Below, one piece after another: positions 16,893 through 55,955 of a DNA stretch of 64,000 nucleotides. The stretch covers positions 1,959,001 through 2,023,000 of the forward strand of contig NZ_JAHSTX010000001.1 in NCBI RefSeq assembly GCF_019145375.1. Reading direction: 5' to 3'. How positions within the stretch are numbered: position 1 is the stretch's first letter; every line of letters begins with the position of its first letter. The notes beneath the pieces are model-generated. The model did no database searches, was not told where the DNA came from, and saw only the letters and a program-made list of their open reading frames with translations. The position numbers and the translations under genes were made by a program. Source of the stretch: Pseudomonas triticicola. GTDB taxonomy: Bacteria; Pseudomonadota; Gammaproteobacteria; Pseudomonadales; Pseudomonadaceae.

Positions 16893-16895
16893 ATC

Positions 16896-17897: not shown

Positions 17898-17909
17898 GTC
17901 TGCGCCTCC

Positions 17910-19283
17910 TCAGTGCCCGGTTTCGTCGGCCAGGGTTGGCTGCGGCCCCGGTTGATCCTGCTGCGGCGGTTCGCGCAACAGACGCAGCAATACCCAAAGG
18001 CCAATGGCGAAAATCAGCAGATAGAACAGCAGAATCAGCCACGTCGACCCGACCACTTGAGCCCTGGACACTGATGACAGACTGTCCGCCGTGCGCATCA
18101 ATCCGTAAACCGTAAACGGCTGTCGCCCCACTTCGGTGACGACCCAGCCGCTGAGCATCGCCAGGAACCCGGCCGGCGCCAGCAGCACGCACGCGCCCAG
18201 CCAGCGACGCGCCGTGTACAGGCGATTACGTCGGCGCAGGATCAGGCTGACCACACCCTGCCCAAGCATCAACAGCCCCAGCCCGACCATCAGTCGGAAC
18301 GCGAAAAACACCGGCGGCACGGGCGGGATGTCCTCAGGCGGGAACTCATCAAGCGCGGCGATGGTGCTGGTCAGGTCATGCTGCAGGTACAGGGAACCAA
18401 TGCGCGGAATCGCCACTTCCCAGTGGTTGCGGCGCTCTTGCATATCCGGCCATGCGAACAGCCGCAGTGGCTCCCCCGCGCCTTCTGGCGGGCGCGTCCA
18501 TGAGCCTTCGATGGCCGCCACTTTCTGCGGCTGGGCGTGCAAACTGTGCCGGCCATGCAGATCGCCGACAACAATCTGCACCGGCATCAGCAGCGCAATC
18601 ACCCACAGCGCCATGGAAAATTGCAGGCGAGCGCGCGGGTTTTCCCGGGCCTGGCGCAATTGCCAGGCGCTGATCCCGGCAATCAGCGTCGCGCTGCCGA
18701 TGAACACGGCGAGCAACATATGCGCCAAGCGATAGGGAAACGAGGGATTGAAGATGATCGCCCACCAATCCTCGGCGAGGAAACGCCCGTCGGCGCCAAT
18801 CGAATAGCCGGCGGGGGTCTGCATCCACGAGTTGGCAGAAAGAATCCAGAACGCGCTGATCAGCGAGCCCACCGCCACCGCGCAAGTGGCGAAAAAATGC
18901 AGGCGCGGACCGACCTTTTTCAGACCGAAGAGCATGATGCCGAGAAAACCCGCTTCGATGAAAAACGCTGCCATCACCTCATAGAACATCAACGGGCCGA
19001 GGACATCACCGGCCTGCACCGACAGCCGCGACCAGTTCAGGCCGAACTGATACTCCAGAATCAACCCCGACGCCGTGCCCACCGCGACATTGAGAGCAAA
19101 CACCTTGAGCCAGTAGCGATAGACATCCAGATAAACCTGACGCCCGGTCCTCAACCACGACGCTTCCAGCACCATGAGGAAATGCGCCAGACCGATGCTG
19201 AACGCCGCCAGCACGATGTGAAAGCTGATCGTGATCGCGAACTGGGCGCGGGCCGCCATCAGGGCGGAATCAACAGGCTCCAT
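17910..19283 (-). CDS. cioA: Cytochrome bd-type (cyanide-insensitive) quinol oxidase subunit I
   Basis: A 457-residue CydA/CioA homologue with a His at position 22 (ISFHIVLA), matching the high-spin haem ligand, and a second His in YRLAHML. The Q-loop is short, as in cyanide-insensitive oxidases. The quinol-site segment reads GWVVTEVGRQPF, where most CydA proteins have GRQPW, a conservative change. It conserves energy at the inner membrane while tolerating cyanide, nitric oxide and low oxygen. First gene of cioAB; the glyoxalase-like gene upstream ends only three bases before it, so a longer transcript is possible. Confidence 0.94.
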   Translation of the reverse strand: MEPVDSALMAARAQFAITISFHIVLAAFSIGLAHFLMVLEASWLRTGRQVYLDVYRYWLKVFALNVAVGTASGLILEYQFGLNWSRLSVQAGDVLGPLMFYEVMAAFFIEAGFLGIMLFGLKKVGPRLHFFATCAVAVGSLISAFWILSANSWMQTPAGYSIGADGRFLAEDWWAIIFNPSFPYRLAHMLLAVFIGSATLIAGISAWQLRQARENPRARLQFSMALWVIALLMPVQIVVGDLHGRHSLHAQPQKVAAIEGSWTRPPEGAGEPLRLFAWPDMQERRNHWEVAIPRIGSLYLQHDLTSTIAALDEFPPEDIPPVPPVFFAFRLMVGLGLLMLGQGVVSLILRRRNRLYTARRWLGACVLLAPAGFLAMLSGWVVTEVGRQPFTVYGLMRTADSLSSVSRAQVVGSTWLILLFYLLIFAIGLWVLLRLLREPPQQDQPGPQPTLADETGH

Positions 19284-19286
19284 CCA

Positions 19287-19676
19287 TCAGCCGCTGTAGA
19301 ACACAGCAAGCTTGTTGCCTTCGGGATCGCGCAGATAGGCCACGTAAAAGTCCGGCGTATAGGCCTCGCGAGTGCCAGGCGCGCCTTCGTCGCTACCGCC
19401 ATGGTCGAGCCCGGCCTTGTGCACCTGATCAACCTTGTGCCGCGAGTCGGCGCGGAACGCCGGCATCATGCCGTTGCCCGGAGTTGCCGGCTGGTCATTG
19501 AAAGGCTTTGAAATGTGCACACTGCCGGGGCCGTTGGACTTGTCGGCGCAATCGGGCAGGTAAAAACAATAGTGTTCCTCGCGATCATGCCGGTAGCCAA
19601 GCGGTGTCAGGATCGCCTTGTAGAAAACCGCCGAACGCTCGACATCGTTGGCGCCGATAAACAGATAACTGAGCAT
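19287..19676 (-). CDS. VOC (glyoxalase/bleomycin resistance) superfamily protein
   Basis: A 129-residue protein with the betaalphabetabetabeta layout of the vicinal oxygen chelate fold. It begins MLSYLFIGANDVERSAVFY and ends with the YLRDPEGNKLAVFY strand that usually carries a metal-binding Glu or its neighbour. GGAGGA stands seven bases before the ATG. Substrate unknown; the group includes lactoylglutathione lyase-like proteins of uncertain role. Confidence 0.85.
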   Translation of the reverse strand: MLSYLFIGANDVERSAVFYKAILTPLGYRHDREEHYCFYLPDCADKSNGPGSVHISKPFNDQPATPGNGMMPAFRADSRHKVDQVHKAGLDHGGSDEGAPGTREAYTPDFYVAYLRDPEGNKLAVFYSG

Positions 19677-19699
19677 GGGATGTCCTCCGATGGCAGCTG

Positions 19700-19915
19700 T
19701 CAGCGCTGTGGCTGTTCCTCGTTCAGGGTGAAAACGTTGCCGGCGTCACGCACCAACTGGCGCCATTCGGCACTGGTGATCAGGCCTTGCTCCTCCATCA
19801 GATCTGCAGCTTTGAGCAGTTCGTCGTACTGCTGTTCGGGATCCAGATCGGCCTCGGTCTGCTCCGCCATTTTGCGCCATGCCGCCAGTGATGCCTTTTT
19901 TTGCTGATCGAACAT
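19700..19915 (-). CDS. Small acidic helical protein, function unknown
   Basis: A 71-residue protein (MFDQQKKASLAAWRKMAEQ...) rich in charged helix-forming residues, with a short hairpin-like EEQGLITSAEWRQL segment that resembles SHOCT-type oligomerisation motifs. AGGAGA lies eight bases before the ATG. It precedes the VOC gene by 23 bp and is probably cotranscribed with it. Confidence 0.68.
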   Translation of the reverse strand: MFDQQKKASLAAWRKMAEQTEADLDPEQQYDELLKAADLMEEQGLITSAEWRQLVRDAGNVFTLNEEQPQR

Positions 19916-20054
19916 ACGGGTATCTCCTGAGGACTTACCCGGTAGAAAAATCAGCGCGACAGAGGTTCAGGTCAGACGACGGATGGAGTTGTCCTCACCG
20001 GAACGGCATGTCGACATCAGCGCATGCGTCAGCGGCAAGGGTCGGTTGGCGCCG

Positions 20055-21578
20055 TCACACATGCTCCTCGACGCGCTCGGTGCGCTGCGCATGTTCTGCC
20101 CATTCAATCGCATCCGCGCAGCAGAACGCATGTCGACCATTGATTTCCAGCGCTGAGGTGAAGAAAAACTGCCCGACCGTGAGTTCGCCCACGGCATGGA
20201 TCTGTCGGGCAGCGCCGGTACGGCCGATCAGGCAGTAGTTGTCAGGGTCAACGCAGATCCCGCCCATCGGATGAGGTGTGGCCGCACCGCTGCCGATCAG
20301 CGACGTCAGCAAGGCTGAATCCAGCCTGTGCGCATCCCTGGGAAAACCCGTGGCATGGATCAGCCGATCGTAGGCATGTTCCCAGCCTGCCCCACGCAGA
20401 ATCAGCCCTTGGGAGTCAACCGGTTGGGGCGCGGCGAACGCTCCGCTGACAAACTCCAGTTGGCCGCTGCGTAGATAAGCGAGGATCTTGCGCGCGTTTT
20501 CCGTCGGGATGGAAACCCGATACGCCATGAAAAAGCTGAAGTACTCGCTCATGAAGCGGGCTTGTGCAGTGTCGTCCAGCGCCTGCCAGAGATGCTCGAC
20601 GAAGCCGTTGGTGGCGTAGAGGATCGCCTGCCACAGCCGCGGCGCCTGCGAAACCTGGATCTCGTGCTCGATAAAACTGACGATATCCGTCGGCGGCGCT
20701 GGCAAAGGGATCACCGCGCTGCTCGACGCCGGATCATGGGCGGCCAGTTCCTTGCGAAACAGCGCGACCAGATCACTGATCTGCAATGGCCCGTGTTGCG
20801 CAACCAGCGCGCGCACGCCCTCACGCGTCAGGTGCCTGAGTTCGACACGCTCCTGGGTGCCTCGCACCACTGGAAAATAGCCGCTGCGCGAATGCATGCG
20901 AATCGGCCCGCGATGACCGCCCTCGATCAAGGCAATGACCGTATCGATAGCGCTGAGCCGCGCACCGATCACAGCCACGCGCTCGTGGGGAGCAATCGTT
21001 TCGAGCAAACGGGAGACCGGATAAGGCGTTGTCAGCACACGCTCGTCGCAACGCTCCGGGTCCTTTTTCCCGCCCAGAGGGCCACAGAACAGAAAGACCT
21101 TCTGCGTAGCGATGCTGACGCCACAACGGGTGCGCACGGTTTCACTGCCGTCGATGAAATCGATGGCGCAGACCTCGGCATTGATCAGCACAATCTGACA
21201 GCCCAATGACGCGCCGCGCAGGACGAGCTTGCGTACCTGGTCTTTCAGGTACAGGCCAAACAAGGCACGGGGCGCAAAACTGTCCGCTTCTGGTTCGAAG
21301 CCGGCAAAGGCCGGGCGCCAGGCGGCGGGATATGCCAGCAGCCATTGCAGGAAATGCCCCGGCAGGTGCGGATACGGCGAGATGTACGCAGTTTTGGTAT
21401 TGAGGATATTGCTCGGCAGGTCCGCCTCGTAAGCGGCGCCATGACCGAACGCTTCGCGTTTCTCGAAAAGGTACACCGTCCCCGCTGGCGCGCTGCGTTC
21501 GGCCACGCGATCGAGATGACGCTGCAGGAAGGCGATAGCCGTCGCGCCGCAGCCGACGATTGCAAAAGCATGCTTCAT
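20055..21578 (-). CDS. FAD/NAD(P)-binding oxidoreductase (NAD_binding_9 type)
   Basis: About 507 residues; ATG 21578 has AAGGA nine bases upstream. The N-terminus carries the FAD Rossmann motif IVGCGATAIAFL, and ERVAVIGARLSAIDTV forms a second nucleotide motif near residue 200. IHATGFPRD near 420 is the ATG motif seen in flavoprotein monooxygenases. Proteins of this fold include N-hydroxylating and ring-hydroxylating enzymes, but most are uncharacterised. It is the last gene of the eight-gene operon and would supply an oxidation step, possibly N-hydroxylation (inference). No further minus-strand gene of the operon follows within 130 bp. Confidence 0.8.
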   Translation of the reverse strand: MKHAFAIVGCGATAIAFLQRHLDRVAERSAPAGTVYLFEKREAFGHGAAYEADLPSNILNTKTAYISPYPHLPGHFLQWLLAYPAAWRPAFAGFEPEADSFAPRALFGLYLKDQVRKLVLRGASLGCQIVLINAEVCAIDFIDGSETVRTRCGVSIATQKVFLFCGPLGGKKDPERCDERVLTTPYPVSRLLETIAPHERVAVIGARLSAIDTVIALIEGGHRGPIRMHSRSGYFPVVRGTQERVELRHLTREGVRALVAQHGPLQISDLVALFRKELAAHDPASSSAVIPLPAPPTDIVSFIEHEIQVSQAPRLWQAILYATNGFVEHLWQALDDTAQARFMSEYFSFFMAYRVSIPTENARKILAYLRSGQLEFVSGAFAAPQPVDSQGLILRGAGWEHAYDRLIHATGFPRDAHRLDSALLTSLIGSGAATPHPMGGICVDPDNYCLIGRTGAARQIHAVGELTVGQFFFTSALEINGRHAFCCADAIEWAEHAQRTERVEEHV

Positions 21579-21628
21579 CAAGATATTTCCTTGTCTGGAA
21601 CCGCATCCTTACGTTGCAGCCAAGCGCT

Positions 21629-22816
21629 TCAAGCGATGGCTGTGAGGCATTCCTTGAGGCGCAATGCCCCGGTTTTCACCTGCTCGGTATCGCCGGAGTA
21701 CGACAGTCGCACGTGCCCCGCAGCGCCGAAGAAACTGCCGGGGATCAGCGCCACGCCGTACTCCTCCAGCAACAGCGTACAGAACGTTTCGTCATCGCTG
21801 ATCAGCTTGCCGCGCAGCGACTTGCCCAGCGCCGGGCGGATGTCCATGAACAGATAGAACGCTCCCGCCGGCACGCAAAAGTTCAGATGCGGCGTGCCTT
21901 GCAAAATCGTCAGCAGTGTCTGCCGCTGCTGCGCCAGCCGCTCTCTTGCCGCCAGGGAAAAAGCCTGGTCGCCGTTGAACGCCGCCGCCGCGGCCGCTGC
22001 TGGAATCGGTGGCAGGTTGGAAATCGAATTCGAGTTGAGGGTGGTCACGGCCGCCGCAACCCGTTCATCCGCCGCCATCAAACCGACGCGCCAGCCGGGC
22101 ATGCCATACATTTTCGAAACACTGTCGATCTTGATGATCCGGTCCCTCAAGTCCGGAGCGACCGACAGCAGGCTCGGGCACGTCGGCATGTCATAGACGA
22201 AGCGCTGATAAACATCGTCGGAGATGATCCAGACGTCTTTCTCACGCAGCACTTCGGCCAGCGCGCCCAACTCCTGCGCCGTATACACCGCGCCGGTCGG
22301 GTTGCCCGGCGAGTTGAGCAGCACCACGCGCACCGAGTCCGACAGCGCTTCTTCGAGGACTTGCGCGGTCATCTTGAAGCCGGTCTGCGCGGTGCAGGCC
22401 ACATCGACCACGCCGGCGCCGACCAGCTCGGCAATGTCGAAATAGGTCGGCCAGCAAGGGCTGGCGACGAGGATATGGTCGCCGGGACAAATGATCGCGC
22501 GCAACACACTGAACAGCAGATGCTTGGCACCGAGGCCGGCGACCAGGTTGGTCTCAGCGTAAAAGTCAAAACCCTGCCGGTGCAAATAGCCCTTGTACGC
22601 CGCGAGCAATGCCGCATCGCCCTGGCTCGAACCGTATCCGCCGCTGTGTTCGCCGGCGGCTTTGACGGCCGCCTCGATGATATGCGCCGCGGGCAGAAAA
22701 CCCGGTACGCCGACGCCCAGGTCGATGACCGGCCGTGACATCTCGCGAACTTTTTGCACCACCCCGAGGATCGGGCAAAACCGTGCGAACTCCAGATCTG
22801 GTGAAAGACCGGGCAT
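21629..22816 (-). CDS. Fold-type I aminotransferase (class I/II, PLP)
   Basis: A 395-residue protein; ATG 22816 is preceded by AAGGAGA nine bases upstream. It contains NSPGNPTGAVY, the Asp200-Asp-Val-Tyr (ISDDVY) element, and SVSKMYGMPGWRVG with the PLP-binding Lys235. The C-terminal HVRLSYS carries the substrate-carboxylate Arg. It transfers an amino group between an amino acid and a 2-oxo acid. It starts 17 bases after the aldehyde dehydrogenase homologue and next to an aldolase that forms or cleaves 4-hydroxy-2-oxo acids. It may therefore aminate a 4-hydroxy-2-oxo acid to a gamma-hydroxy amino acid (inference). Confidence 0.9.
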   Translation of the reverse strand: MPGLSPDLEFARFCPILGVVQKVREMSRPVIDLGVGVPGFLPAAHIIEAAVKAAGEHSGGYGSSQGDAALLAAYKGYLHRQGFDFYAETNLVAGLGAKHLLFSVLRAIICPGDHILVASPCWPTYFDIAELVGAGVVDVACTAQTGFKMTAQVLEEALSDSVRVVLLNSPGNPTGAVYTAQELGALAEVLREKDVWIISDDVYQRFVYDMPTCPSLLSVAPDLRDRIIKIDSVSKMYGMPGWRVGLMAADERVAAAVTTLNSNSISNLPPIPAAAAAAAFNGDQAFSLAARERLAQQRQTLLTILQGTPHLNFCVPAGAFYLFMDIRPALGKSLRGKLISDDETFCTLLLEEYGVALIPGSFFGAAGHVRLSYSGDTEQVKTGALRLKECLTAIA

Positions 22817-22833
22817 GGACAGATCTCCTTGGG

Positions 22834-23712
22834 TCAGGCTGCGCATTCGGCCACACGGCCACGCGCCATGAGCACAGCCATATGCGTGGCCGTCGCCGTA
22901 ATGATGTCGAGGTTGCCGGCACTTGGATCGAGGAAATCCCCTGCCCCTTCGACCCGCACCATGGTGAACAGACGCCCTTCGCTGTAATGCAGATCGACAA
23001 TTACCTGGTAACCCGGTACAGCCGATTGCACCTGCGCCACCGCACGCTCGATCTCTCGCCGGGTGGCGGGCAGATCGACGTGTTCGATCAACGCCGACAC
23101 AGCGGTCTGCATGTAGACGTTGGGCTTGGCCGGGTTGATATTGAGGATCGCTTTGACGCTGTTGCACCCGGTGAAATGGCTCAGAGCGTTTTCCGTGGTG
23201 GTGATGTAGTTGCTCAGGTTGCGCCGCGTGGCAGGTCCGGCACTTTGCGCACTGATCGAGGACACCACCTCGATATAGCGCACACCCGGATTGGCCCGGG
23301 CAATCGCGGCGGCGAGCGGAATCGAAGCCTGGCCGCCGCAGGTGATCATGTTGATGTTGTTGGCGTCGGCCAGCGCTACGCCATTGAGTGACGGCACGCA
23401 GAGTACGCCCAGAGACGCCGGGGTCAGATTGATGATCGCTTTGCCGGCCTCGATCAGGCGCGGCGCATGTGCTTCATGGTCCGCGGCCGAAGTCGCATCG
23501 AACACCACGTCGAAATCGTTGATGCGCGCAAACAGTCCGTCGATGCCGTCCGCCGTGGTCGACACACCGCGTTCGCGGGCGAAGGCCAGGCCTGAAGAGC
23601 TCAACGAGCGGCCGGCGACCACCGTGCACTCCAGTTCCGGATGGGCCAGTACCTTGCAGAGAATGTCGCAGCCGATATTGCCGCTGCCGATGATGGCGAT
23701 TTTCAAAGTCAT
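22834..23712 (-). CDS. Acylating acetaldehyde dehydrogenase homologue (MhpF/DmpF family)
   Basis: A 292-residue protein with the NAD motif IIGSGNIGCD (7-16) and the active-site segment TCGGQASIP, with nucleophile Cys125. It carries the conserved SISAQSAGPATRRN and INPAKP segments of the family. These enzymes convert an aldehyde to its acyl-CoA, fed through a channel from the partner aldolase. GGAG lies six bases before the start, and the gene begins 14 bases after the aldolase stop. The pair is kept, but no catechol ring-cleavage genes are nearby, so its role here is probably not meta-cleavage catabolism. Confidence 0.88.
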   Translation of the reverse strand: MTLKIAIIGSGNIGCDILCKVLAHPELECTVVAGRSLSSSGLAFARERGVSTTADGIDGLFARINDFDVVFDATSAADHEAHAPRLIEAGKAIINLTPASLGVLCVPSLNGVALADANNINMITCGGQASIPLAAAIARANPGVRYIEVVSSISAQSAGPATRRNLSNYITTTENALSHFTGCNSVKAILNINPAKPNVYMQTAVSALIEHVDLPATRREIERAVAQVQSAVPGYQVIVDLHYSEGRLFTMVRVEGAGDFLDPSAGNLDIITATATHMAVLMARGRVAECAA

Positions 23713-23726
23713 TTGGAGCTCCGGAT

Positions 23727-24734
23727 TCAGGCGACGACGGATTGAGACAGACGGCTGGCGACCGAGATGATCAGATCTTCCTGGCCGGCCACGGCGTTGC
23801 AGCGAGCCAGTTCCTCATAGATCCGGCGCGGCTCGACCTGGAACTCGGACGCTGCCCGCGCCACGTGTTTTTCAAAACCACTGCAGACGCCATAAAGCCC
23901 GCTGATGAGGTTGGCCGTTTTGACCACGGTCGGAGTTTTCACCGGAGTGAAATCTGCGAGATCGTCAACCGCCCGACACAAGTCGAAGACATTCACACCC
24001 GTGTCGAACTGATAGCGTTCGAGCACTGCGCAGAGCACTTCCAGCTGAGTGTTGCCGGCGCCCGCACCGAAGCCGCGCATGCAGCCATCAATGATCGTCG
24101 CGCCGGCCTGCGCCGCCGCCAGCGAGTTGGCGATGGCCAGCCCGAGGTTGTTGTGGCCGTGAAAGCCCACGGGAATGTCGAGCTCGCGGACCAGCAGAGC
24201 GATTTTCTCGCGGGTGCTGTCGGGGTCGAAATGTCCGGCCGAGTCCATCAGCACCAAGGCATTGGCGCCGTAGCGTTGCTGTTTCAAAGCCTCTTCGAGC
24301 AAGGTCGACGCGCTGGCCATGTGGGTCATCATCAACACCCCATGGACGAACGCACCTTTACTGCGCGCGTGCTCGATATAACTCTCGGTGACGCTCGCCT
24401 CGGTGCAGTGCGAGGCAATGCGCAACACCTCGACGCCGATGCTCAGCGCGGTGTCGATGTCGCTCAGCCGCGAAAACCCCGGAATCATGTGCACGCCCAG
24501 CCGAGTGTGCGTGAGGTTGGCGCGCGCGGTTTCCAGCATCTGCACGTCGCTGTGGCGCGCCAGTCCCAGTTGCAGCGAGGATGCGCCGAGGCCGTTGCCA
24601 TGGCCGACTTCGACCACGCTCAGGCCGCAGCCATCGACCGCGCGACAGTAAGCGGCGATGTCTTCCAGGCTCAACGAATGGGAGACCGCGTGATTTCCGT
24701 CGCGCAGCGTTGGGTCGTGAATGGCAATACTCAT
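23727..24734 (-). CDS. 4-hydroxy-2-oxovalerate aldolase homologue (DmpG/MhpE family)
   Basis: A 335-residue TIM-barrel protein. It has Arg11-Asp12 and His15 in TLRDGNHAV, the metal ligands His192 and His194 in GFHGHNNLG and the C-terminal communication domain with AGQEDLI. The segment that in characterised members reads GYAGVYSSF is GLYGVCSGF here, so the second tyrosine, likely the catalytic one, is Cys284. HGDGL is HGNGL. The family cleaves 4-hydroxy-2-oxo acids to pyruvate and an aldehyde, reversibly. The altered residues and the cluster context suggest a changed substrate or the synthetic direction (inference). Confidence 0.86.
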   Translation of the reverse strand: MSIAIHDPTLRDGNHAVSHSLSLEDIAAYCRAVDGCGLSVVEVGHGNGLGASSLQLGLARHSDVQMLETARANLTHTRLGVHMIPGFSRLSDIDTALSIGVEVLRIASHCTEASVTESYIEHARSKGAFVHGVLMMTHMASASTLLEEALKQQRYGANALVLMDSAGHFDPDSTREKIALLVRELDIPVGFHGHNNLGLAIANSLAAAQAGATIIDGCMRGFGAGAGNTQLEVLCAVLERYQFDTGVNVFDLCRAVDDLADFTPVKTPTVVKTANLISGLYGVCSGFEKHVARAASEFQVEPRRIYEELARCNAVAGQEDLIISVASRLSQSVVA

Positions 24735-24772
24735 CGAGATCAAATCCTTGTGTATTCGAAGGGTGGTGGCGA

Positions 24773-25825
24773 TTACGGCTCGGTCTGAGGCTGGGGCAAA
24801 GGCGCGGGCTGTTCCTGGAACAGGCGCTTGGGCAGAAACACCGGCGAAACGTGGATGATCGACATGCGCACCACGTGGTTGAGCATCACGAACGCCGGGT
24901 CGAGCTTGAGCAGCAATGCGGCTGCGGTCATCACCTCGACGCCGCCCGGCACCCATGACATGAACAGGGTCAGAAACGGTTTGCCGGTCAGTTTGCTCAT
25001 CACGAACGCGACCAGCAGCGTGGTGCAGAAGGTCAGCGCAGTGACCACCAGCCCGGCGCGGATATAACGCACGACATCTTTGAAAGTGATGTCCTTGAGG
25101 CGAATACCGATCAGCCCGCCCAGCAGGATCAGCGCGATCACCGCGAACGGATCGGGCACATGCAGATTGGCCTCGGGAAAACCGACATTGACAGCGGCGG
25201 TGCACAGCAAGCCGGTCAGCATGTACGGCGCCGGGACATCGAAACGTTCCAGCAGATAGCCGGCGAGCACCGCGGCAATGGCCGGCGGTATCACGCTCAG
25301 CCAGTTATCCAGTGTGCCCAGCGCCGGTGCCACGCTATCGGCATGGCCACCGGCAATGATCGTGACCACGGCCAGCAGCGCAAGCAGGCGCACGATGTGC
25401 ACAAAAGCGATGCGTCCCGAGGCGGGCCCCTGCTCGCCCGACACCGTCATCACCGCCGCCATTGCGCCAGGAATCGAGCCCAGCAGGCTTTCGATGTGCC
25501 CCCACTTTTCCATGCGCCGCAGCCAGTTGTAGCCGACGAAGATCTGCGTGGTCATGCAAATCAGCAGGCCGACCAGAATGCTGAAGTCGGTCAACTCCCG
25601 CATCATCGACGCGGTGACAATCGAACCGACACTGATCCCCAGCAGCAGTTGCACAGTGGCCACGAAGGGATACGGCATGCGCATGCGCACCCCCAGCTTG
25701 CTCAGCGCAGTGACTGCGCAAATGGCGCCGATCAGGTCGCCGAGCGGAAACCCGGTCAGGTAACCGAGCCAGGCGCCGAACGCTGCCACCGGAATCGGAA
25801 TAAGGCTTTCAATCAGCTTGTTCAT
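24773..25825 (-). CDS. AbrB-family integral membrane protein
   Basis: A 350-residue membrane protein with about ten helices arranged as two related halves. Each half has a glycine/proline-rich stretch (LLGSIPGAMAAVMT and FMSWVPGGVEVMTAA) diagnostic of the AbrB duplication (formerly annotated as ammonia monooxygenase-like). Function in the family is poorly defined; transport or regulation has been proposed. It sits inside the operon, between the ATP-grasp and the aldolase genes, and could move the product or a precursor across the inner membrane. The C-terminal tail is proline-rich (EQPAPLPQPQ). No clear ribosome binding site. Confidence 0.87.
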   Translation of the reverse strand: MNKLIESLIPIPVAAFGAWLGYLTGFPLGDLIGAICAVTALSKLGVRMRMPYPFVATVQLLLGISVGSIVTASMMRELTDFSILVGLLICMTTQIFVGYNWLRRMEKWGHIESLLGSIPGAMAAVMTVSGEQGPASGRIAFVHIVRLLALLAVVTIIAGGHADSVAPALGTLDNWLSVIPPAIAAVLAGYLLERFDVPAPYMLTGLLCTAAVNVGFPEANLHVPDPFAVIALILLGGLIGIRLKDITFKDVVRYIRAGLVVTALTFCTTLLVAFVMSKLTGKPFLTLFMSWVPGGVEVMTAAALLLKLDPAFVMLNHVVRMSIIHVSPVFLPKRLFQEQPAPLPQPQTEP

Positions 25826-25911
25826 GGGCTATCCACTTTTCTGAAGGCGTGAGCATCCCGTCCAGCGACGGAAGTCAACGCTGTTTGATGTCGTCAGGAC
25901 ATGGGCAAGAG

Positions 25912-27153
25912 CTAGTGCGCCGCAGCGGTCTCGATGGCGGCCCAGTCACAACTGTCGTGGAACCACTGCTCGACCTGATACAGCATGTCGCGCAACTCGG
26001 CCTCGTTCTGGCCCGCCACAATGGCGTTGAGGATTTCGGAATTGGTGAATTTCATGTTGCTGTAGGAGGTCATTTTTTCCGCCGAGATGCGGTATTCCAG
26101 CACGCCTCCAAGCGGGCAATCCCGGGGCACATCGCGCAGCAGACCGACACGCGGCGGAATGCTGATATGCCCGACCATGCGCAGCGGCTCGGTCATCGGT
26201 TCAGGCCGGTAGGCCGGATCGTGGAGCGCGCGCAGAAAAGCCATGCGCGGGTCGATGCCCCAGGCGTGGGTGATCTCCTGATTGAAAAACACTCCGCCCA
26301 GGCGCGAGGCGATTTCGCAGAGCACGATCTCGTCGTTTTCATCGACGAACAGCTCCAGGTGAAACAGCATCGTCGGTTCGGATGGCAGAACCCGTTCAAC
26401 CAGCGCACGCGCATAGTCGACCAGGCGATCACGCATCGGATTGTGCGCATCGAGCATGTGCAAGTCATGGGATTTGCCGCCGAGAAAATCCAGCGCCGAG
26501 GTCATCACACGTACCGGCGACACCAGAATCGGCCGGCCCTCGATGTACAGGCCATTGACGATGTAATGACTGCCGCGCACGTACTTTTCAATCATCAGAT
26601 TGTGGAACGTGGTCGAGGTCTGGCCGAGCAGCCAATCGCGCATTCGCGCCATGTCGCGTAACACCACGACGCCGTTGGAACCGCGCCCGTCGCGCGGTTT
26701 GATCACCACCGGAAAACCGTGCAGATCGCTGAACCGTACCGCCTCGGTGGCGTTGCTGATGGTGGCCATTTCGGCGATGGCAAAGCCGCACTCGCGGGTG
26801 CGCTGTTTCATCAGGAATTTGTCCCGGTAGAACATCGCACGCTCTTGCGCACCGACGCTGATCCCGAGCCGGTCATTGATACGCGCTACGCGCAATACAT
26901 CAATTTCCGCCAGCGCCACGCACAACGGTGCGTGCAGTTCGCGGGCGATTTCATAGACGTCGATTTCGACCAGCGCGTTGTCATTGAAGTTGTCGAACAG
27001 CTGATAGCGCACTGTGTCGCCCAGATGCGCCGCGATTTCCTGCGCGCGAGAGGCACAACTCAACAGGACGCCTTCACGGCCAAGCGCAACCGACCAGTCT
27101 TCGGCGCGGTGCTGGAGAATAATTTTCGGCGGGCAAAACACGATGAGCTGCAT
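25912..27153 (-). CDS. ATP-grasp ligase
   Basis: A 413-residue protein from ATG 27153, which has AAGGA eight bases upstream; an upstream ATG at 27177 is less well supported. The ATP-grasp core runs from about 110 to 300: VVIKPRDGRGSNG holds the nucleotide-binding Lys152 and the flexible loop, IEKYVRGSHYIVNG the middle strand, and LFHLELF...EIVLCEIASRLGG the Mg-binding acidic pair. Such enzymes join a carboxylate to an amine through an acyl phosphate, often amino acid to amino acid. A copy of the shared 29-bp motif stands about 100 bp upstream, suggesting an internal promoter. Confidence 0.88.
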   Translation of the reverse strand: MQLIVFCPPKIILQHRAEDWSVALGREGVLLSCASRAQEIAAHLGDTVRYQLFDNFNDNALVEIDVYEIARELHAPLCVALAEIDVLRVARINDRLGISVGAQERAMFYRDKFLMKQRTRECGFAIAEMATISNATEAVRFSDLHGFPVVIKPRDGRGSNGVVVLRDMARMRDWLLGQTSTTFHNLMIEKYVRGSHYIVNGLYIEGRPILVSPVRVMTSALDFLGGKSHDLHMLDAHNPMRDRLVDYARALVERVLPSEPTMLFHLELFVDENDEIVLCEIASRLGGVFFNQEITHAWGIDPRMAFLRALHDPAYRPEPMTEPLRMVGHISIPPRVGLLRDVPRDCPLGGVLEYRISAEKMTSYSNMKFTNSEILNAIVAGQNEAELRDMLYQVEQWFHDSCDWAAIETAAAH

Positions 27154-27254
27154 ACGGGCTTCCTTGCGATCTTGCATGGTTCATAGAGCGCCTGCCCCAC
27201 CGTGGCGGGACAGGTGCAAAGCTGGGTTATCTTGAACAGAAGCGGTGATTCTGG

Positions 27255-27283
27255 CCAATACCGATTACGTCCTTATTGATACC
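27255..27283. promoter_or_regulatory. Shared 29-bp motif, copy 1 (upstream of the ATP-grasp gene)
   Basis: The sequence is CCAATACCGATT, eight variable bases, ATTGATACC, with ATACC repeated 21 bp apart (two helical turns). It straddles the stop codon of the oxidase gene and lies 102-130 bp before the ATP-grasp start, in the same orientation as copy 2. Probable binding site of the LysR regulator at 29450. Confidence 0.6.
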
Positions 27284-28134
27284 TGTTCCATGCTGTTGGT
27301 CGCCTGATCGAGGATTTTCTCGCATTCACGCATGACCTCAGCCTTGCGCTGAAGGTACTCGACGAAAATTTCCTGCGCGGCGGACTCCACAACGCTGATG
27401 CCCATCGCTTCGACAAAGGCTTCAACCGCGGCGACCGCGTGAGCAAAGTGATTACTTTCGGTGCCGCCGGTGTGCACGGTGACCCAGGCGACCGTCGATC
27501 TGACCTTGGCGGCCGGCACGCCCATGTCACGCTCGAACCACTGCGTGAACAACGGGTGAATGAATTCCACCTCGCCATGGGTGTACACCTCATGCACCAG
27601 AGTCGTGAGCAAACCTTGCAGCAGATCTCGGTCACGCAGGCGCCGGGCGTCGGTCCAGTCTTTGAAGGACTGCGCCGAAGGCAGGCAGTTCTCTTTCAAC
27701 AGCCATTGGTCATCACCACAGATCGGTGTGGCCATGTTGTAGAACAGCTCGGAGTGCAGGGTGTTGCCCAACGCGCCGAGATCCTCGTCGGTGATGCGTT
27801 GCAGGCTGCCGCACACGCGGTACAGACGATCCGCCGCTTCGCTGTGCTGTTCCGAGCGCGCCAGCAAAGTGATGCGACTGGCGAGGCCAGACACGCTGGC
27901 GGCCGAGTTGTTGGTTTTCGACCAACTGCCGAAGAACGTGCGCAGCGGGGCAGCAGCATGGTGGCGCGAAGTCAGGGTCTGGAAGGAGCGCTCGATGTCG
28001 ACCAGCTCTGCCTCCTGACTGCGAAACGCCTCTACCAACGCTTGCTGCAGAACACCGGTGGGCATGTCGCCGAGCACGGGTTCAATGACGGACAATAACG
28101 GGCTTTGCAGCGTCAGCAGGTTACTCACGGTCAT
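27265..28134 (-). CDS. Heme-oxygenase-like fold putative diiron oxidase (HDO/TenA-like)
   Basis: A 289-residue all-helical protein. It shows the spaced ligand pattern of heme-oxygenase-like diiron oxidases: Glu182 ... His193 in HEVYTHGEVEFIHPLF, and His221 with Glu226-Ser-Asn-His229 in HTGGTESNHFAH. Glu129 in LHSELFYNM is a further candidate from an earlier helix. Known members N-oxygenate amines, desaturate or fragment amino acids and fatty acids (SznF, BesC, UndA). Helix assignments are by eye, and a TenA-like hydrolase remains possible. The start overlaps the MFS stop by four bases (ATGA), so translation is coupled. Confidence 0.72.
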   Translation of the reverse strand: MTVSNLLTLQSPLLSVIEPVLGDMPTGVLQQALVEAFRSQEAELVDIERSFQTLTSRHHAAAPLRTFFGSWSKTNNSAASVSGLASRITLLARSEQHSEAADRLYRVCGSLQRITDEDLGALGNTLHSELFYNMATPICGDDQWLLKENCLPSAQSFKDWTDARRLRDRDLLQGLLTTLVHEVYTHGEVEFIHPLFTQWFERDMGVPAAKVRSTVAWVTVHTGGTESNHFAHAVAAVEAFVEAMGISVVESAAQEIFVEYLQRKAEVMRECEKILDQATNSMEQVSIRT

Positions 28135-29354
28135 CTGACATTTTCCTTGTTGGATGATGAATCAAGCGCTTTGAGCGCAGAAGCGCCGGCCATGACCGGC
28201 AATGCAGGAACCTTCCAGCCGCGACGAATCACCAGCAGCGGCAAAATCTGGAACGTCATGATCAGTGCAATGCACGCTGGCCAGCCGCCAATCTCCCAGA
28301 GCGTGCCCGGCACAAAAGCACCAAAACTGCCGCCCAGGTAATAGCTGGTCAGATACAGGCCCACGGCGCCGGCCTTGTCCAAGCGAGCATGGGCGGTGAT
28401 AAATGCGTTGGCGGCGGCCTGAGCAAGGAACACTCCGGTAGAACTCAGCGCCAGGCCGGCAATGATCAGCCACAGCGGGGACGTCAATGTCAGCAGTGAG
28501 CCGGTGATTCCCAGGCACGCTGCGGCTGTGATCAATTCGCTGCGCGGCCGCGCCTTGCCCAGACGCCCGGCAATCGGCACCACCACCAGCGCCAGCAGGA
28601 ACACCGAATAAATCGCCCCGAGGGCGCCGGTGCTCAGGGAAAACGGCGCGCGACTCAGGTGCAGGCCGACGTAGGTGAATGTCGCAATCTGCGCAAACAG
28701 CACACAAAACCCCACGGCATAGGCGGCCAGCAACGGTGTGCTGAAACGTTCGGCATGCCAACCCCGACGGTCCGCCGGCAACTGAACCGTGGCGCGCGGA
28801 TTGCGCGGCAAAAACCAGGCAATGGCCAGCCCGAGAATCAGGCTCAGACTTGCCAGCATCGCCAGCGCGAGGCGCCAGTCGGCAAACTCGGTGACCCATC
28901 CGGTGAGAAACCGCCCGCAGAATCCGCCGAGCACGGTGCCGGCCACGTAGACACTGGTCACTTCGGTCACTGCGCCGTCTCTCCAGCGCACGCCGATGTA
29001 GGCAATGCTGGTGGCAAACACGACGGGTATCAGCAGGCCCTGAACCGCCCGCCAGAGCAGAAATTCAGCAAAACTGCTCGCCCACGCCGCCAGTAACGCT
29101 GGCAGCGCCAACGAGATCGCGGCCAGCGCGATGACCCGGTGCTGCTCGGCTCGCACGGTGAGCCGGCCGACAAACAACGCGGCAACGGCCACCGCCAGCG
29201 TGGTGACGGTGATGCTCCAACTGGCCTGCCGGGCAGACACGTCGAACGCCGAGGCAAGCGGATCAAGCAGCCCCTGCGTTGCATAAAGGTTGATAAAGGC
29301 CGCGCATCCCGCCAGAAACAGGGCGACCCGAGGACAAAACAGGCGAAGGCTCAT
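28131..29354 (-). CDS. MFS transporter (YnfM-like, 12 helices)
   Basis: A ~407-residue permease from ATG 29354. It has twelve hydrophobic segments and a VGRLTVRAEQHRV loop in the motif A position, as in YnfM-type drug or metabolite exporters. A TTG 24 bases upstream is an alternative start. It is the promoter-proximal gene of the eight-gene operon and lies divergent from a LysR gene, an arrangement common for exporters that protect a producer from its own product (inference). Confidence 0.88.
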   Translation of the reverse strand: MSLRLFCPRVALFLAGCAAFINLYATQGLLDPLASAFDVSARQASWSITVTTLAVAVAALFVGRLTVRAEQHRVIALAAISLALPALLAAWASSFAEFLLWRAVQGLLIPVVFATSIAYIGVRWRDGAVTEVTSVYVAGTVLGGFCGRFLTGWVTEFADWRLALAMLASLSLILGLAIAWFLPRNPRATVQLPADRRGWHAERFSTPLLAAYAVGFCVLFAQIATFTYVGLHLSRAPFSLSTGALGAIYSVFLLALVVVPIAGRLGKARPRSELITAAACLGITGSLLTLTSPLWLIIAGLALSSTGVFLAQAAANAFITAHARLDKAGAVGLYLTSYYLGGSFGAFVPGTLWEIGGWPACIALIMTFQILPLLVIRRGWKVPALPVMAGASALKALDSSSNKENVR

Positions 29355-29449
29355 AAGAAATGTTCGTAATAATTTCAAACACTTTTATAAGATGGGCTGT
29401 CTGAAGGATCCAATACCGATTTCTGACCGATTGATACCCAGGGATGAAC
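29355..29449. promoter_or_regulatory. Divergent promoter region of the biosynthetic operon, with motif copy 2
   Basis: This 95-bp spacer separates the MFS exporter (minus) from the LysR gene (plus). Motif copy 2 (CCAATACC..., 29410-29438) ends 11 bp before the LysR ATG and is 56-84 bp from the MFS start, fitting activation of the operon and autorepression of the regulator. A TATAAGAT at 29386-29393 could serve as a -10 element for the LysR gene. Confidence 0.62.
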
Positions 29450-30349
29450 ATGATCGATCTGCGCCGTTTGCGTTATTTTCTCGTCGTCAGCGACGAATTG
29501 CATTTCGGCCGCGCCGCGGTGCGTCTGCACATCGCCCAGCCGCCGCTGACCCGGCAGATTTCAGCGCTGGAAACAGAACTGGGCTTTCGCTTGTTCGACC
29601 GCAGCACGCGCAACGTCACGCTGACGTCCGAGGGTCGACACTTTCTGCCGTATGCGCGGGCCGTGCTGGAGCAAGTCGACCTGACAGCAGCCATCACCAG
29701 CAAACTGGCATCCGGCTCGGCCGGGCATCTGGCCGTGGGTTATGCCAGTTCGATCGCACTTTCGGATATTTTCAGCCAGACCATCCAGACCTTTTGCTCG
29801 TCGTATCCCGACGTGCAGTTGACCGTGGAAGAAGGCGCTTCGAGCACGCAATGCGCGCAAATCGTTGAAGGGCGCCTGGACATTGGCATGAGCCGCATGC
29901 GCCCGGCGGATGCGAACCCGGACATTCAGGTCATCTGCCTGGACAACGAGCCATTGATGGCCGCCGTACCCAGTGACAGTGCCCTCGCCGAGCTGAGCCA
30001 TGTAACTCTGGCCGAGTTGAGCGCCTTTCCTTTGATCGCCTTCCCGACCGACTACGGCTCAGCCTTGAACGACATCATCGCCGCGCTGTACCGGCGCAAC
30101 GATCTGGTGCCGCGATCGGGGCCGAGTGGCAAACAGATCACCTCGATCATTGCACTGGTCGCCGCTGGCCGGGGCGTTGCGGTTGTGCCGCAATGCACAC
30201 AGGCCCTGGTCAAACGCGGCGTGACTTATCGACCGCTGGCCGAACCCAGCGCCACGGCGCCGTTACTGGTATTGACGCGAAAACGCGAGCGCAGCCCGCT
30301 GGTCAAGGCATTTGTCGACGTGATCGAGCAGACCTTGCGCACCAACTGA
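29450..30349 (+). CDS. LysR-family transcriptional regulator of the biosynthetic cluster
   Basis: A 299-residue LTTR: an N-terminal winged helix (LRRLRYFLVVSDELHFGRAA, then QPPLTRQISALE) and a C-terminal two-lobe effector-binding domain. ATG 29450 has AGGGA five bases upstream; ATG 29444 is an in-frame alternative. Divergent from the MFS exporter and adjacent to a candidate binding site that recurs inside the operon, it is likely the pathway-specific regulator. It converges on ppk2 with 43 bp between stops. Confidence 0.9.
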   Translation: MIDLRRLRYFLVVSDELHFGRAAVRLHIAQPPLTRQISALETELGFRLFDRSTRNVTLTSEGRHFLPYARAVLEQVDLTAAITSKLASGSAGHLAVGYASSIALSDIFSQTIQTFCSSYPDVQLTVEEGASSTQCAQIVEGRLDIGMSRMRPADANPDIQVICLDNEPLMAAVPSDSALAELSHVTLAELSAFPLIAFPTDYGSALNDIIAALYRRNDLVPRSGPSGKQITSIIALVAAGRGVAVVPQCTQALVKRGVTYRPLAEPSATAPLLVLTRKRERSPLVKAFVDVIEQTLRTN

Positions 30350-30392
30350 ATAACGCCTGCGCCTGCGCGGTGGAAGGTCTGCACAGCAATCC

Positions 30393-31208
30393 TCAGAATT
30401 TTTCCGCGACACGCTTGTACGGATAATCCGGTTCTTTGTACTTGCCCGGCTTCTGTCGTTTCGGCAACTCGACCTTGTCGCGCTTGACCTCTTCATAGGG
30501 AATGCGACTGAGCAAGTCCGTGATGATGTTCAGCCGCGCGCGACGTTTGTCATTGGAGTCGGCGACCCTCCACGGCGCCCAATCGGTATCGGTATGCCTG
30601 AACATCTCGTCCCGCGCCCGTGAGTAGTCATACCAGCGACTGTAGGATTTCAGATCCATTGGTGTCAGTTTCCAGATCTTGCGCCCGTCATTGATTCGCG
30701 CTTCGAGCCGGCGGGTCTGTTCCTCTGGACTGACCTCAAGCCAGTACTTGAGCAGGATCACCCCCGAATCGACGATGGCGTTCTCCACCCAAGGGATCGA
30801 CTTGAGAAACTTGTCGGCCTGTTCTTCCGTGCAGAAGCCCATGACCCGTTCGACGCCGGCGCGGTTGTACCAACTGCGGTCGAAAATCACCACCTCACCG
30901 CCTGCCGGCAGATGCGGTAGGTAGCGCTGCACATGCATCTGGCTCTTTTCGCGATCGGTTGGCGCTGGCAATGCCATCACCCGGAACACCCGTGGGCTGA
31001 CGCGCTCCGTGATCGCCTTGATCACCCCGCCCTTGCCCGCACCGTCGCGCCCTTCGAAAACAATACACACCTTGACACCTTTGGCGATGACCCACTCCTG
31101 CAGCTTGACCAGCTCAACGTGGAGCTTGCGCAGCTGTTCGAGATAGTCCTTGTTTTTCAAGCGCGGACGTTCAATTGCCTTTGCAGGTTTCTTCTTGTCT
31201 TTCGCCAT
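30393..31208 (-). CDS. ppk2: Polyphosphate kinase 2
   Basis: A 271-residue PPK2 of the single-domain class. Walker A FEGRDGAGKGG lies at about 51-61, Walker B with FDRSWYNRAGVE at ~109-120 and the lid segment DGRKIWKLTPMDLKSY further on; these are the diagnostic motifs. It transfers phosphate between polyphosphate and nucleoside mono- or diphosphates. ATG 31208 follows GAGG/AGG; an upstream frame extension exists but lacks support. Confidence 0.94.
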   Translation of the reverse strand: MAKDKKKPAKAIERPRLKNKDYLEQLRKLHVELVKLQEWVIAKGVKVCIVFEGRDGAGKGGVIKAITERVSPRVFRVMALPAPTDREKSQMHVQRYLPHLPAGGEVVIFDRSWYNRAGVERVMGFCTEEQADKFLKSIPWVENAIVDSGVILLKYWLEVSPEEQTRRLEARINDGRKIWKLTPMDLKSYSRWYDYSRARDEMFRHTDTDWAPWRVADSNDKRRARLNIITDLLSRIPYEEVKRDKVELPKRQKPGKYKEPDYPYKRVAEKF

Positions 31209-31397
31209 GAACCTGTCCTCGCGCTTCAACAGCCCGCTGAAATTGTTTATTGACCCGATGGCCCTGATCCGTGAGGTTAGTTCACGCCCGATTGTTTGCC
31301 ATTGCCGGGCAAAAAAGCCGGATCGCCATGTGTTTCCTGCGTTTGTTCCGACGTCGCACTGTTCATTGCCCGATCCCCTGTTTGCTGGAGTTTTTCG

Positions 31398-33524
31398 ATG
31401 CCGTCGCCCAAATCATTGCCCACTGCCCTGCTCGGTCTGGCCCTGGCCTGCCCGGCAATGGCCGAGACCCAGGGACTGGAGCTGGGGCAAGTGCTGATTT
31501 CGGCGGACGAGCGCAGCGGCACCGATGCAGCGGTGGAAGAGGCCGGAACACGCCTCGAACAGGTGCCCGGCGGCACCAACGTGGTCGACCTGCGCCAGCC
31601 GTTGCAGGGCCGCGTTGCTAGCAATCAGGATGTGCTCGCCTATCAGCCGGGGGTGTATGCCCAGTCGGCGGGCAACGAAGGCGTAAAGATTTCCATCCGT
31701 GGTTCAGGCATCAACCGCGCACCCGGTGCCCACGCCTCGGGGCTGTACACGATGCTGGATGGCCTGCCACTGACCGGCCCGGGCGGCACACCATATGAAT
31801 TGCTCGAGCCGCTGTGGGTCGACCATGTCGAAGTGCTGCGCGGCGCCAATGGCTTTGATCGCGGCGCGCTGGCGCTGGGCGGCGCTATCGATTACGTCAG
31901 CCACACCGGTTACACCGCGCCAAAGCTGCAAGTGCGCTACGCCACTGGCAGCCATGGCTATCAGCAGCGCCAGGTCAGCTCCGGGCAAGTCCTGGGAGAT
32001 TTCGATTACTACGTGTCCCTGACCGGTGCCAATGCCGACGGCTATCAGGACCACACCGCCAGCGAGAGCAAAGGCCTGATCGCCAACTTCGGCTATCGCT
32101 TCAACCCGAATCTGGAAACCCGCTTCTACTTCCGCTATCGCGAAACCGAAAACGACCTCGCCGGTCGCGTGACCAAGCATTCCATCGAACACAGCCCACG
32201 GGCAGCCAACCCGGCGTATGTGGCTCGCGATGACAGCCGCAAGCAGCCCGGCAGTACCTTCATCGGCAACAAGACCACGTTCTATCTCGATGACGATTCG
32301 AGCATCCAGACCGGCCTCGCCTACCACGACTACCCGATGGATTTGCGCGAAGGCCCGAACCGGCTGAAGGTGGCATACACCGACGTCAGCGGCACCTTCG
32401 ACTACAAGCGCCGCGACACCCTGTTCGGCATGGAAAGCCGCAGCAATGTCGGCCTGCGCGTGACCAAGCACCTGCCCAACGACGGCGCCAGCGAGTTCGT
32501 GCGCATCCCGAGTGGCAACACCGCCAGCTATGCCCCGGGCACGCGGATGCGCAATTTCACTTATCAGGGTTCGGACACCGTGCTGCATTTCGGCAATGAC
32601 CTGGAAATTGCCGACGACCTCTGGCTGACCACCGGCCTTGCCGCCATCTACACCCGCCGCGAAAGCGCCGTGACCTATCCGCAGGGTGGCGGCAAGACCA
32701 GCCTCAGTGATTGGGACTATGCTCCGCGCATCGGCCTGCGCTACCAGATCACCCCAGACGTGCAAGTGTTCGGCAACCTCAGCCGCTCCGTCGAAGCGCC
32801 GCACCCGTGGTCGCTGATCTACAGCTCCAACGTGCGCTTCCCTGCCGGCAATGGCGCCGCCACCGGCACCCAGCGCGACCCGGTCGAACTGCAAAACCAG
32901 ACCGCAACCACTCTGGAACTTGGCGGCCGTGGCGACAGCCATTTGGGCGAATGGAGCCTGGCCTGGTACTACGCGCAAGTTCGTCACGAACTGCTCTCGG
33001 TGCTGCCGGACGCCAACGCCGTCACGCCCTACGAACTCAACGCCAGCCCGACCGTGCACCAGGGCATCGAGGCCAGCCTCAACAGCAAACTCTGGACCGC
33101 CGCCGACGGCCGCCAGCTGAGCTTGCGCCAGGCCTACACCTTCAGCGACTTCCACTACCGCGACGACGAACGCTTCGGCGACAACCGCCTGCCGGGCCTG
33201 CCGATGCATTATTACCAGGGCGAACTGCGTTACGACTGGCCGCAGGGTTTCTTCGCCGCCGTGAACACACAATTGGTGTCCAAAGTTGCCGTGGACTACG
33301 CCAACAGCTACTACGCCGACCCTTACGCCCTGTTCGGCGCCACGCTGGGCTACAACGCGCCGAAGGGCGACTGGCAAGGCTGGGTCGACATGCGCAACCT
33401 GACCGGCAAGCGTTATGCGGCAACGGTCACGCCGGGGTATGACGACAAAGGTCTGGATGCTGCGCGGTCGACTCCGGGTGAAGGGATGGGGGTTTATGTT
33501 GGGGTTTCGTGGAGTTTGCTATAA
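31398..33524 (+). CDS. TonB-dependent outer-membrane receptor
   Basis: A 708-residue receptor from ATG 31398 (GGAG eight bases upstream) with a signal peptide ending CPAMA. The plug domain (about 45-190) has DVLAYQPGVYAQ, IRGSG and LRGANGFDRGALALGGAIDY; the barrel follows and ends with VGVSWSLL. It has no N-terminal signalling extension, so it is not a sigma/anti-sigma linked transducer. It imports an iron chelate or other large ligand; the substrate cannot be read. A REPIN follows the stop. Confidence 0.9.
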   Translation: MPSPKSLPTALLGLALACPAMAETQGLELGQVLISADERSGTDAAVEEAGTRLEQVPGGTNVVDLRQPLQGRVASNQDVLAYQPGVYAQSAGNEGVKISIRGSGINRAPGAHASGLYTMLDGLPLTGPGGTPYELLEPLWVDHVEVLRGANGFDRGALALGGAIDYVSHTGYTAPKLQVRYATGSHGYQQRQVSSGQVLGDFDYYVSLTGANADGYQDHTASESKGLIANFGYRFNPNLETRFYFRYRETENDLAGRVTKHSIEHSPRAANPAYVARDDSRKQPGSTFIGNKTTFYLDDDSSIQTGLAYHDYPMDLREGPNRLKVAYTDVSGTFDYKRRDTLFGMESRSNVGLRVTKHLPNDGASEFVRIPSGNTASYAPGTRMRNFTYQGSDTVLHFGNDLEIADDLWLTTGLAAIYTRRESAVTYPQGGGKTSLSDWDYAPRIGLRYQITPDVQVFGNLSRSVEAPHPWSLIYSSNVRFPAGNGAATGTQRDPVELQNQTATTLELGGRGDSHLGEWSLAWYYAQVRHELLSVLPDANAVTPYELNASPTVHQGIEASLNSKLWTAADGRQLSLRQAYTFSDFHYRDDERFGDNRLPGLPMHYYQGELRYDWPQGFFAAVNTQLVSKVAVDYANSYYADPYALFGATLGYNAPKGDWQGWVDMRNLTGKRYAATVTPGYDDKGLDAARSTPGEGMGVYVGVSWSLL

Positions 33525-33545
33525 GACCCAACGCGAGATTCAAAT

Positions 33546-55912: not shown

Positions 55913-55955
55913 AACAAGACATCGAACGTTGGTCTCTCAACAGTAAGGGAAGTCT

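Follow-up and report, generated by a model that had tools for sequence, protein, structure and literature searches.

A nine-gene block in Pseudomonas triticicola that may be a transferable operon whose product, a small peptide or an amino-acid antimetabolite, is exported

What might a pseudomonad make with an aldolase, two kinds of oxidising enzyme, an ATP-grasp ligase and two putative exporters encoded side by side? The question is raised by positions 20055 to 30349 of a 64,000-nucleotide stretch of Pseudomonas triticicola (the window; assembly GCF_019145375.1, contig NZ_JAHSTX010000001.1, positions 1,959,001 to 2,023,000), where eight minus-strand genes lie beside a divergent LysR gene. The original prediction saw a candidate undescribed cluster in which a heme-oxygenase-like dimetal oxidase (HDO) could oxidise an amino acid derived from the aldolase. 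Our best explanation as a whole is that these genes make up a transferable operon and that the cell exports what they make, a small peptide or an amino-acid antimetabolite; we give it a probability of about 0.5. The earlier interpretation is thus partly supported: aldol addition followed by transamination stands as the natural reading, and the role assigned to the HDO is weakened. The gene families, folds, residue exchanges, modular distribution and boundaries given below are read from sequence or from a structural model.

All nine genes lie where they were originally placed. In the following list, loci from the comparison genomes carry the prefix L.

29444..30349, plus strand: divergent LysR-type regulator (LysR_substrate and HTH_1), a type that adjoins HDO cassettes and also an HDO-less core (L097/L098)
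28131..29354, minus strand: major facilitator superfamily (MFS) exporter (MFS_1), paired with the HDO; the order LysR-MFS-HDO recurs in 27/28 Pseudomonas HDO loci
27265..28134, minus strand: HDO1, heme-oxygenase-like dimetal oxidase by predicted fold, with no Pfam or NCBIfam model
25912..27153, minus strand: ATP-grasp ligase, L-amino-acid-ligase-like (PF13535, ATP-grasp_4; PDB 4wd3, an L-amino acid ligase, E 2.8e-14)
24773..25825, minus strand: AbrB-type polytopic membrane protein, putative exporter (PF05145, TIGR03082)
23727..24734, minus strand: DmpG-type class II pyruvate aldolase with an altered pocket (TIGR03217 above cut-off; residue mapping on 1nvm; tree)
22834..23712, minus strand: DmpF-type acylating aldehyde dehydrogenase (TIGR03215 above cut-off; catalytic Cys125)
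21629..22816, minus strand: class I/II aminotransferase (PF00155, Aminotran_1_2; pyridoxal phosphate lysine)
20055..21578, minus strand: FzmM-like flavin N-monooxygenase (NAD_binding_9 family; FzmM-type fold)

Starts were refined for the MFS (29354), ATP-grasp (27153), aldolase (24734), aminotransferase (22816) and flavoenzyme (21578) genes; the ATP-grasp start has AAGGAAG upstream and gives 413 residues, the length of most close relatives. Pfam and NCBIfam confirmed the families first named, with the identity of the HDO resting instead on its predicted fold. In transcription order the MFS and HDO genes overlap by 4 nt and are followed by gaps of 111, 86, 38, 14, 17 and 50 nt, so that the spacing is short as described except at the first two gaps. 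No sigma-70 promoter was found in the intergenic region, and 19600-30500 holds one such site compared to 2.2 in shuffled sequence.

The edges of the block

We compared window positions 13001-36000 with loci L010, L013, L105 and L097, keeping matches longer than 150 bases. In these loci DNA homology runs from 20055 to 30334-30351, and within the compared flanks no match was found on either side of the 20055-30351 block. In L160 (genome G019), by comparison, the flanking sequence is present at 78-85% (13001-16834, 19727-19987 and 30393-33520) and the nine-gene block is absent; between the flanks lies ~1.2 kb of repetitive DNA in which no open stretch exceeds 105 codons. Since the homology edges are shared and L160 provides an empty site, the nine genes behave together as an island and look like a transferable unit. 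The adjoining window stretch 16896-19676, which encodes cytochrome bd oxidase I and II and a glyoxalase-like protein, is likewise missing in L160.

An aldolase with an altered pocket

With 330 bits the aldolase (HMGL-like and DmpG_comm) exceeds the cut-off of TIGR03217 (286), and with 317 the dehydrogenase (AcetDehyd-dimer) exceeds that of TIGR03215 (282), both equivalog models. Family score and a catalytic Cys125, kept in all copies read, place the dehydrogenase within its family. Mapped on DmpG (1nvm), the aldolase retains R17, D18, H21, H200 and H202, so that the metal ligands and acid-base residues, which we take to be the catalytic residues of DmpG-type aldolases, are unchanged. The pocket is not: DmpG Leu88 and Tyr291 (BphI Leu87 and Tyr290) are replaced by His82 and Cys284, and 13/13 distinct cluster copies (the window and 12 others) carry His/Cys in place of the Leu87/Tyr290 specificity pair. 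According to PMC3962088, the C4 carbon of the BphI substrate is modelled between Leu87 and Tyr290, which set aldehyde and (4S) specificity; the Y290F and Y290S variants lose stereocontrol, and L87N/Y290F and L87W/Y290F use the (4R) instead of the (4S) form. The positions exchanged in the window are thus those altered by engineers to invert BphI. Because the residues for aldehyde choice and C4 stereochemistry differ, acetaldehyde is only one candidate for the aldol partner.

Both enzymes exceed cut-offs for families best known from catabolism, and relatives of the flavoenzyme adjoin coenzyme A (CoA)-transferase-like genes. These observations would suit a catabolic or detoxifying operon, with 4-hydroxy-2-oxovalerate formed from an amino acid by transamination and then split into pyruvate and acetyl-CoA. 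Relatives of the aldolase allowed us to weigh this idea. In a phylum sample, 28/299 genomes (the window's own included) held a relative at E <= 1e-40. The aldolase tree has 39 rows and a midpoint root; the window copy (L094) and nine repeat loci (L105, L111-L117, L145) were left out, none was dropped for length, and a program warning marks the positions of L118 and L143 as uncertain. The 17/39 rows with His at BphI position 87 all fall to one side of a single branch, whose support is 97/100. Among the remaining 22 rows, positions 87/290 are Leu/Tyr in 18, Ile/Tyr in one and Phe/His in three. A motif for hydratase- or 4-oxalocrotonate-decarboxylase-like neighbours occurred at 13/18 Leu/Tyr loci and 0/4 of the others (L117-L138), and six of these neighbours submitted to Pfam were all FAA_hydrolase (6/6). 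The same motifs, composed after the Leu/Tyr loci had been seen, were found at 0/17 His87 loci and nowhere in window positions 15000-35000.

Five His87 rows lie outside the cluster and have Phe or Val at BphI position 290. At four of them (L139-L142) the DmpG/DmpF homologues stand beside thiamine diphosphate-enzyme, epimerase, ferredoxin-reductase or DegT-type genes, and by their gene content these nucleotide-sugar-type loci probably serve the synthesis of unusual or branched sugars; the fifth, L143, holds a trio of dehydrogenase, aldolase and class I/II aminotransferase. Together with the changed pocket and the lack of a hydratase in the block, the contrast in neighbours and the sugar-like loci count against breakdown, as does a block whose ligase and exporters breakdown would not need. 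We therefore consider a catabolic operon improbable.

A biosynthetic direction draws further on the absence of a catabolic hydratase gene among the nine block genes (family search) and of a second DmpG-type copy in the genome, where other matches are partial and 27-32% identical. Because aldolase, dehydrogenase and aminotransferase travel together, with catalytic residues kept and neither of these companions present, formation of a 4-hydroxy-2-oxo acid and its transamination to an amino acid, as first proposed, is the natural reading of this unit.

A core with and without its oxidase

HDO1 has no Pfam or NCBIfam match (PF14518 finds four other sites in the genome, not this gene) and no sequence relative in PDB at E 10; it shares 94% identity with a Pseudomonas sp. 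EB276 protein, and the named loci nearest to it are likewise from Pseudomonas. Its AlphaFold model (predicted local distance difference test score, pLDDT, 93) matches UndA, CADD, HrmI, PolF, BesC, FlcD, RohS and SznF, with non-HDO members of the fold (TenA, PqqC and heme oxygenase) ranked below the top HDOs, and so places the protein within the seven-helix heme-oxygenase-like fold. MboA is not among the 50 structure matches listed, which has no bearing on kinship. Candidate ligands (E117, H127, E182 or E188, H221, E226, H229 and H232) are kept in 28-30/30 rows, window included, and in 4/4 HDO2 paralogues read, as judged by alignment; His181 and His186 of HDO1 are lacking in HDO2. The conserved His and Glu residues are compatible with a metal site and may include the ligands of the HDO type, three His and three carboxylates carried on three core helices. 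HDO chemistry and family size are treated in PMC13108848.

The distribution of HDO1 bears on whether it belongs to the aldolase pathway. An alignment scan found 99 loci, of which 80 were kept, 28 of them from Pseudomonas; genes in the loci were assigned with tblastn and codon-position GC, since calling the longest open reading frame (ORF) had produced shadow ORFs in high-GC loci. The whole gene set recurs in 7/28 Pseudomonas HDO loci (L009-L014, L035), more than a chance grouping would give, and in all seven the MFS-HDO pair lies within the core operon and not beside it. L022 (1/28) has LysR-MFS-HDO-ATP-grasp-AbrB, and L099 keeps the HDO with ATP-grasp and AbrB only. Two loci (L015, L023; 2/28) hold LysR-MFS-HDO with no other pathway gene in view, and the sole exception to that order is P. 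aeruginosa PA7 (L031; 1/28), with its HDO amid housekeeping-like genes and only an MFS fragment. In 17/28 loci an aminotransferase gene and another HDO-like gene come after LysR-MFS-HDO, along with a second MFS gene (16/17) and phosphoenolpyruvate (PEP) mutase (15/17), the latter recognised by EDKxxxxxNS, which we take to be its motif. This double-HDO cassette has the look of a phosphonate pathway that employs both HDOs, and we found no description of such a cluster among the papers listed, as judged by titles and abstract beginnings.

Other HDO contexts were seen alongside. Loci of the second Pseudomonas cassette are L016-L021, L024-L030, L032, L036, L037, L053, L108 and L109. Of the 52 remaining HDO loci, 45 hold a 413-residue family without a Pfam match beside the HDO, and most of these also carry glycosyltransferase-like and AMP-binding proteins; the order HDO, 413-residue protein, glycosyltransferase-like and AMP-binding is conserved in most of L039-L088 (Bacteroidota, Sphingomonas, Chromobacterium and others). 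In Telmatospirillum (L033, 3409-14224) an HDO1 homologue (62%) directly precedes an ORF of at least 3286 residues resembling, by eye, a nonribosomal peptide synthetase (NRPS), and on an Azospirillum plasmid (L092, 7959-10085) a distant relative (32%) directly precedes an MFS gene, forming another HDO-MFS pair.

An even sample of 398 Pseudomonas genomes (HDO1 at E <= 1e-50, ATP-grasp at E <= 1e-60) contained HDO1 in 28, the ATP-grasp in 16 and both in 10, compared to 1.1 expected with relatedness ignored; the HDO was without ATP-grasp in 18 genomes and the ATP-grasp without HDO in six. In two of these six (L097 and L098, from genomes G221 and G123, neither among the 28 HDO-positive genomes) the LysR gene is followed directly by the six-gene core, 71-86% identical and with no MFS-HDO, and in the other four (L100-L103, the last a 7.5-kb contig) the ATP-grasp, flavoenzyme and AbrB triad stands alone. 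Beyond Pseudomonas, the ATP-grasp matched 10 plasmids, and the two whose gene content was read (roseobacters Phaeobacter/Leisingera; L089, L091) carry ATP-grasp, a PF13454 flavoenzyme, AbrB, a second ATP-grasp (LAL_C2), dmpG, dmpF and aminotransferase genes, with no HDO and no MFS in the set; compared with the window, their flavoenzyme is 28% and their aldolase 72-73% identical. Photobacterium L093 has ATP-grasp-MFS-flavoenzyme, with the MFS gene where others have AbrB. AbrB also adjoins ATP-grasp in L022 and L097-L099, and in L089, L091 and L100-L103 the two are part of one small gene set.

The HDO and MFS genes are dispensable to the core. Because the core occurs without HDO and HDO1 without pathway genes, the amino acid made via the aldolase is not necessarily the substrate of HDO1, and because it occurs with only LysR and MFS, it can act on a substrate present in every cell or on products made elsewhere. 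This bears on the originally proposed single pathway, in which the HDO would oxidise aldolase-derived 4-hydroxynorvaline before ATP-grasp ligation. The shared operon, the MFS/HDO overlap, the recurrence of the full set and the co-occurrence of HDO and ATP-grasp favour it, but it sits poorly with the HDO-less cores, with the sampled genomes in which the two genes occur apart and with HDO copies 67-81% identical to that of the window in the 21/28 Pseudomonas loci that have no aldolase gene in view, and we regard it as unlikely. The same solitary units, flanked by the same type of LysR and each with its own transporter (MFS or AbrB), could instead represent two pathways under one promoter, an HDO1-MFS product and a core product switched on by one LysR as a cocktail. 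That idea is doubtful, with small odds in its favour, given that MFS-HDO lies inside the core operon in every complete locus and that L022 and L099 retain the HDO with ATP-grasp and AbrB only, hinting at a functional tie.

From aldehyde to exported product

The enzyme first described as an FAD/NAD(P) enzyme is indeed a flavoenzyme, and can be narrowed to an FzmM-like one. Its single sequence found no PDB relative at E 1, and sequence relatives emerged by profile only. In overall fold 476/507 residues align over FAD and NADPH domains with an inserted helical domain, as in FzmM; the profile alignment is unreliable over the FzmM domain holding Arg266/276/409/412/416/577. Asn60 aligns with FzmM Asn62 and is Asn in 37/37 rows. 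In contrast, Arg13 of the aspartate entry chamber, present in the aspartate N-hydroxylases FzmM and CreE, is Thr13 in the window and T, S, A or P in 37/37 rows. No nitrosuccinate lyase family occurs among the nine genes. The flavoenzyme was found in 2/398 genomes of the phylum sample, including the window's own, the other in a CoA-transferase-like and cupin context. Relatives in Thioclava (L090, 10001-11515; 60%) and in the window's family (L104; 38-39%) have a CoA-transferase-like protein and a cupin as neighbours. Because its branches are long, the flavoenzyme tree was used solely for the closeness of the window, Thioclava and Pseudomonas rows. The ATP-grasp domain is related to a solved L-amino acid ligase, from which a dipeptide-forming role is predicted, and the best solved relatives of the aminotransferase, whose pyridoxal phosphate lysine is kept in copies read, are aspartate aminotransferases.

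We infer the direction of the aldolase, the substrates, the order of steps, the product and the export role of AbrB from family and fold at each step. The DmpF-like enzyme would reduce an acyl-CoA, by default acetyl-CoA, to an aldehyde, which the aldolase would join to pyruvate; the resulting 4-hydroxy-2-oxo acid would probably be of (4R) or relaxed configuration, or derive from an aldehyde more polar than acetaldehyde. Transamination would yield a gamma-hydroxy-alpha-amino acid, the flavoenzyme could N-oxygenate an alpha-amino group (to hydroxylamine, oxime or nitro), the ATP-grasp ligase would couple this unusual building block with another amino acid, and AbrB may export the product. HDO1 and its MFS would have been acquired separately, as a cassette for oxidising a common amino acid or for tailoring the peptide.

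Parts of this logic are familiar. In the rhizocticin and nikkomycin peptidyl pathways, an aldol addition gives a 4-hydroxy-2-oxo acid that passes to an aminotransferase and an ATP-grasp ligase, and NikA and NikB are DmpF and DmpG homologues; the aldol partners there are phosphonoacetaldehyde and picolinaldehyde, the other tailoring enzymes differ, and we know of no HDO in either pathway. A BesD halogenase marks the beta-ethynylserine (bes) cluster, and no such enzyme is present at this locus. The DmpG-DmpF (1nvm) and BphI-BphJ pairs share the catalytic residues and exceed both family cut-offs as here, and differ in having Leu/Tyr rather than His/Cys at BphI 87/290, the window enzyme lying on a separate branch and without a catabolic hydratase.

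According to PMC11867202, the phosphonoalamide pathway (pnaABCD) likewise traps an unusual 2-oxo acid with a dedicated aspartate-aminotransferase-like enzyme and joins the resulting amino acid by ATP-grasp ligases, but that 2-oxo acid comes from PEP mutase, not an aldolase, and the minimal pnaABCD set is without HDO or flavin N-hydroxylase. Mangotoxin (mboABCDEF, Pseudomonas), an antimetabolite peptide, is also the product of a small operon that encodes an HDO and ATP-grasp ligases; unlike the present block, this operon builds from Leu, Ala and Arg with the Fe-S flavin reductase MboB and the deiminase MboE, and the main text of PMC13185094 names no aldolase, dehydrogenase, aminotransferase or FzmM-like enzyme among its five enzymes. 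None of the nine genes belongs to the Fer2, FAD_binding_6 or amidinotransferase families expected of an MboB-type Fe2S2 flavin reductase or an MboE-type deiminase. The same paper reports that HDO + ATP-grasp clusters come in at least 25 types, and the present cluster may be among them. The cluster was originally called a candidate undescribed one, and we likewise found no description of this gene set among the papers listed, judging by titles and abstract beginnings; its novelty is not proven, and its logic is not new.

Two further observations concern the window more broadly. HDO1, the ATP-grasp ligase and the flavoenzyme, the three proteins tried for a role in anti-phage defence, had no PADLOC match. 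At 44069-60744 lies a 3947-residue BapA-type adhesin ORF (BapA_N; Big_6 repeats in its first third), and downstream of it outer membrane efflux, ABC and HlyD genes make up a type I secretion set.

The preferred reading, an operon for an exported peptide or antimetabolite, offers a concrete orphan pathway with sharp boundaries. The block also shows that HDO cassettes move between biosynthetic modules, such that an HDO beside an ATP-grasp does not by itself reveal the HDO's role. A bolder joint claim, tentative and in our view somewhat unlikely, is that a DmpG/DmpF branch left catabolism to become a biosynthetic C-C bond former through exchange of Leu87 for His and Tyr290 for Cys, Phe or Val, giving 4-hydroxy-2-oxo acids, (4R)- or polar-substituted, that would go into peptides here and into unusual sugars in sister loci; in this Pseudomonas, a gamma-hydroxy amino acid would be oxidised by two unrelated O2-using enzymes, the FzmM-like enzyme and the HDO, and the N-oxygenated dipeptide so formed would belong to a class that has yet to be isolated. 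The findings also point to a natural biosynthetic branch of class II pyruvate aldolases, changed at the positions that control stereochemistry, which would be useful for biocatalysis and as a handle for genome mining of gamma-hydroxy amino acids and branched sugars.

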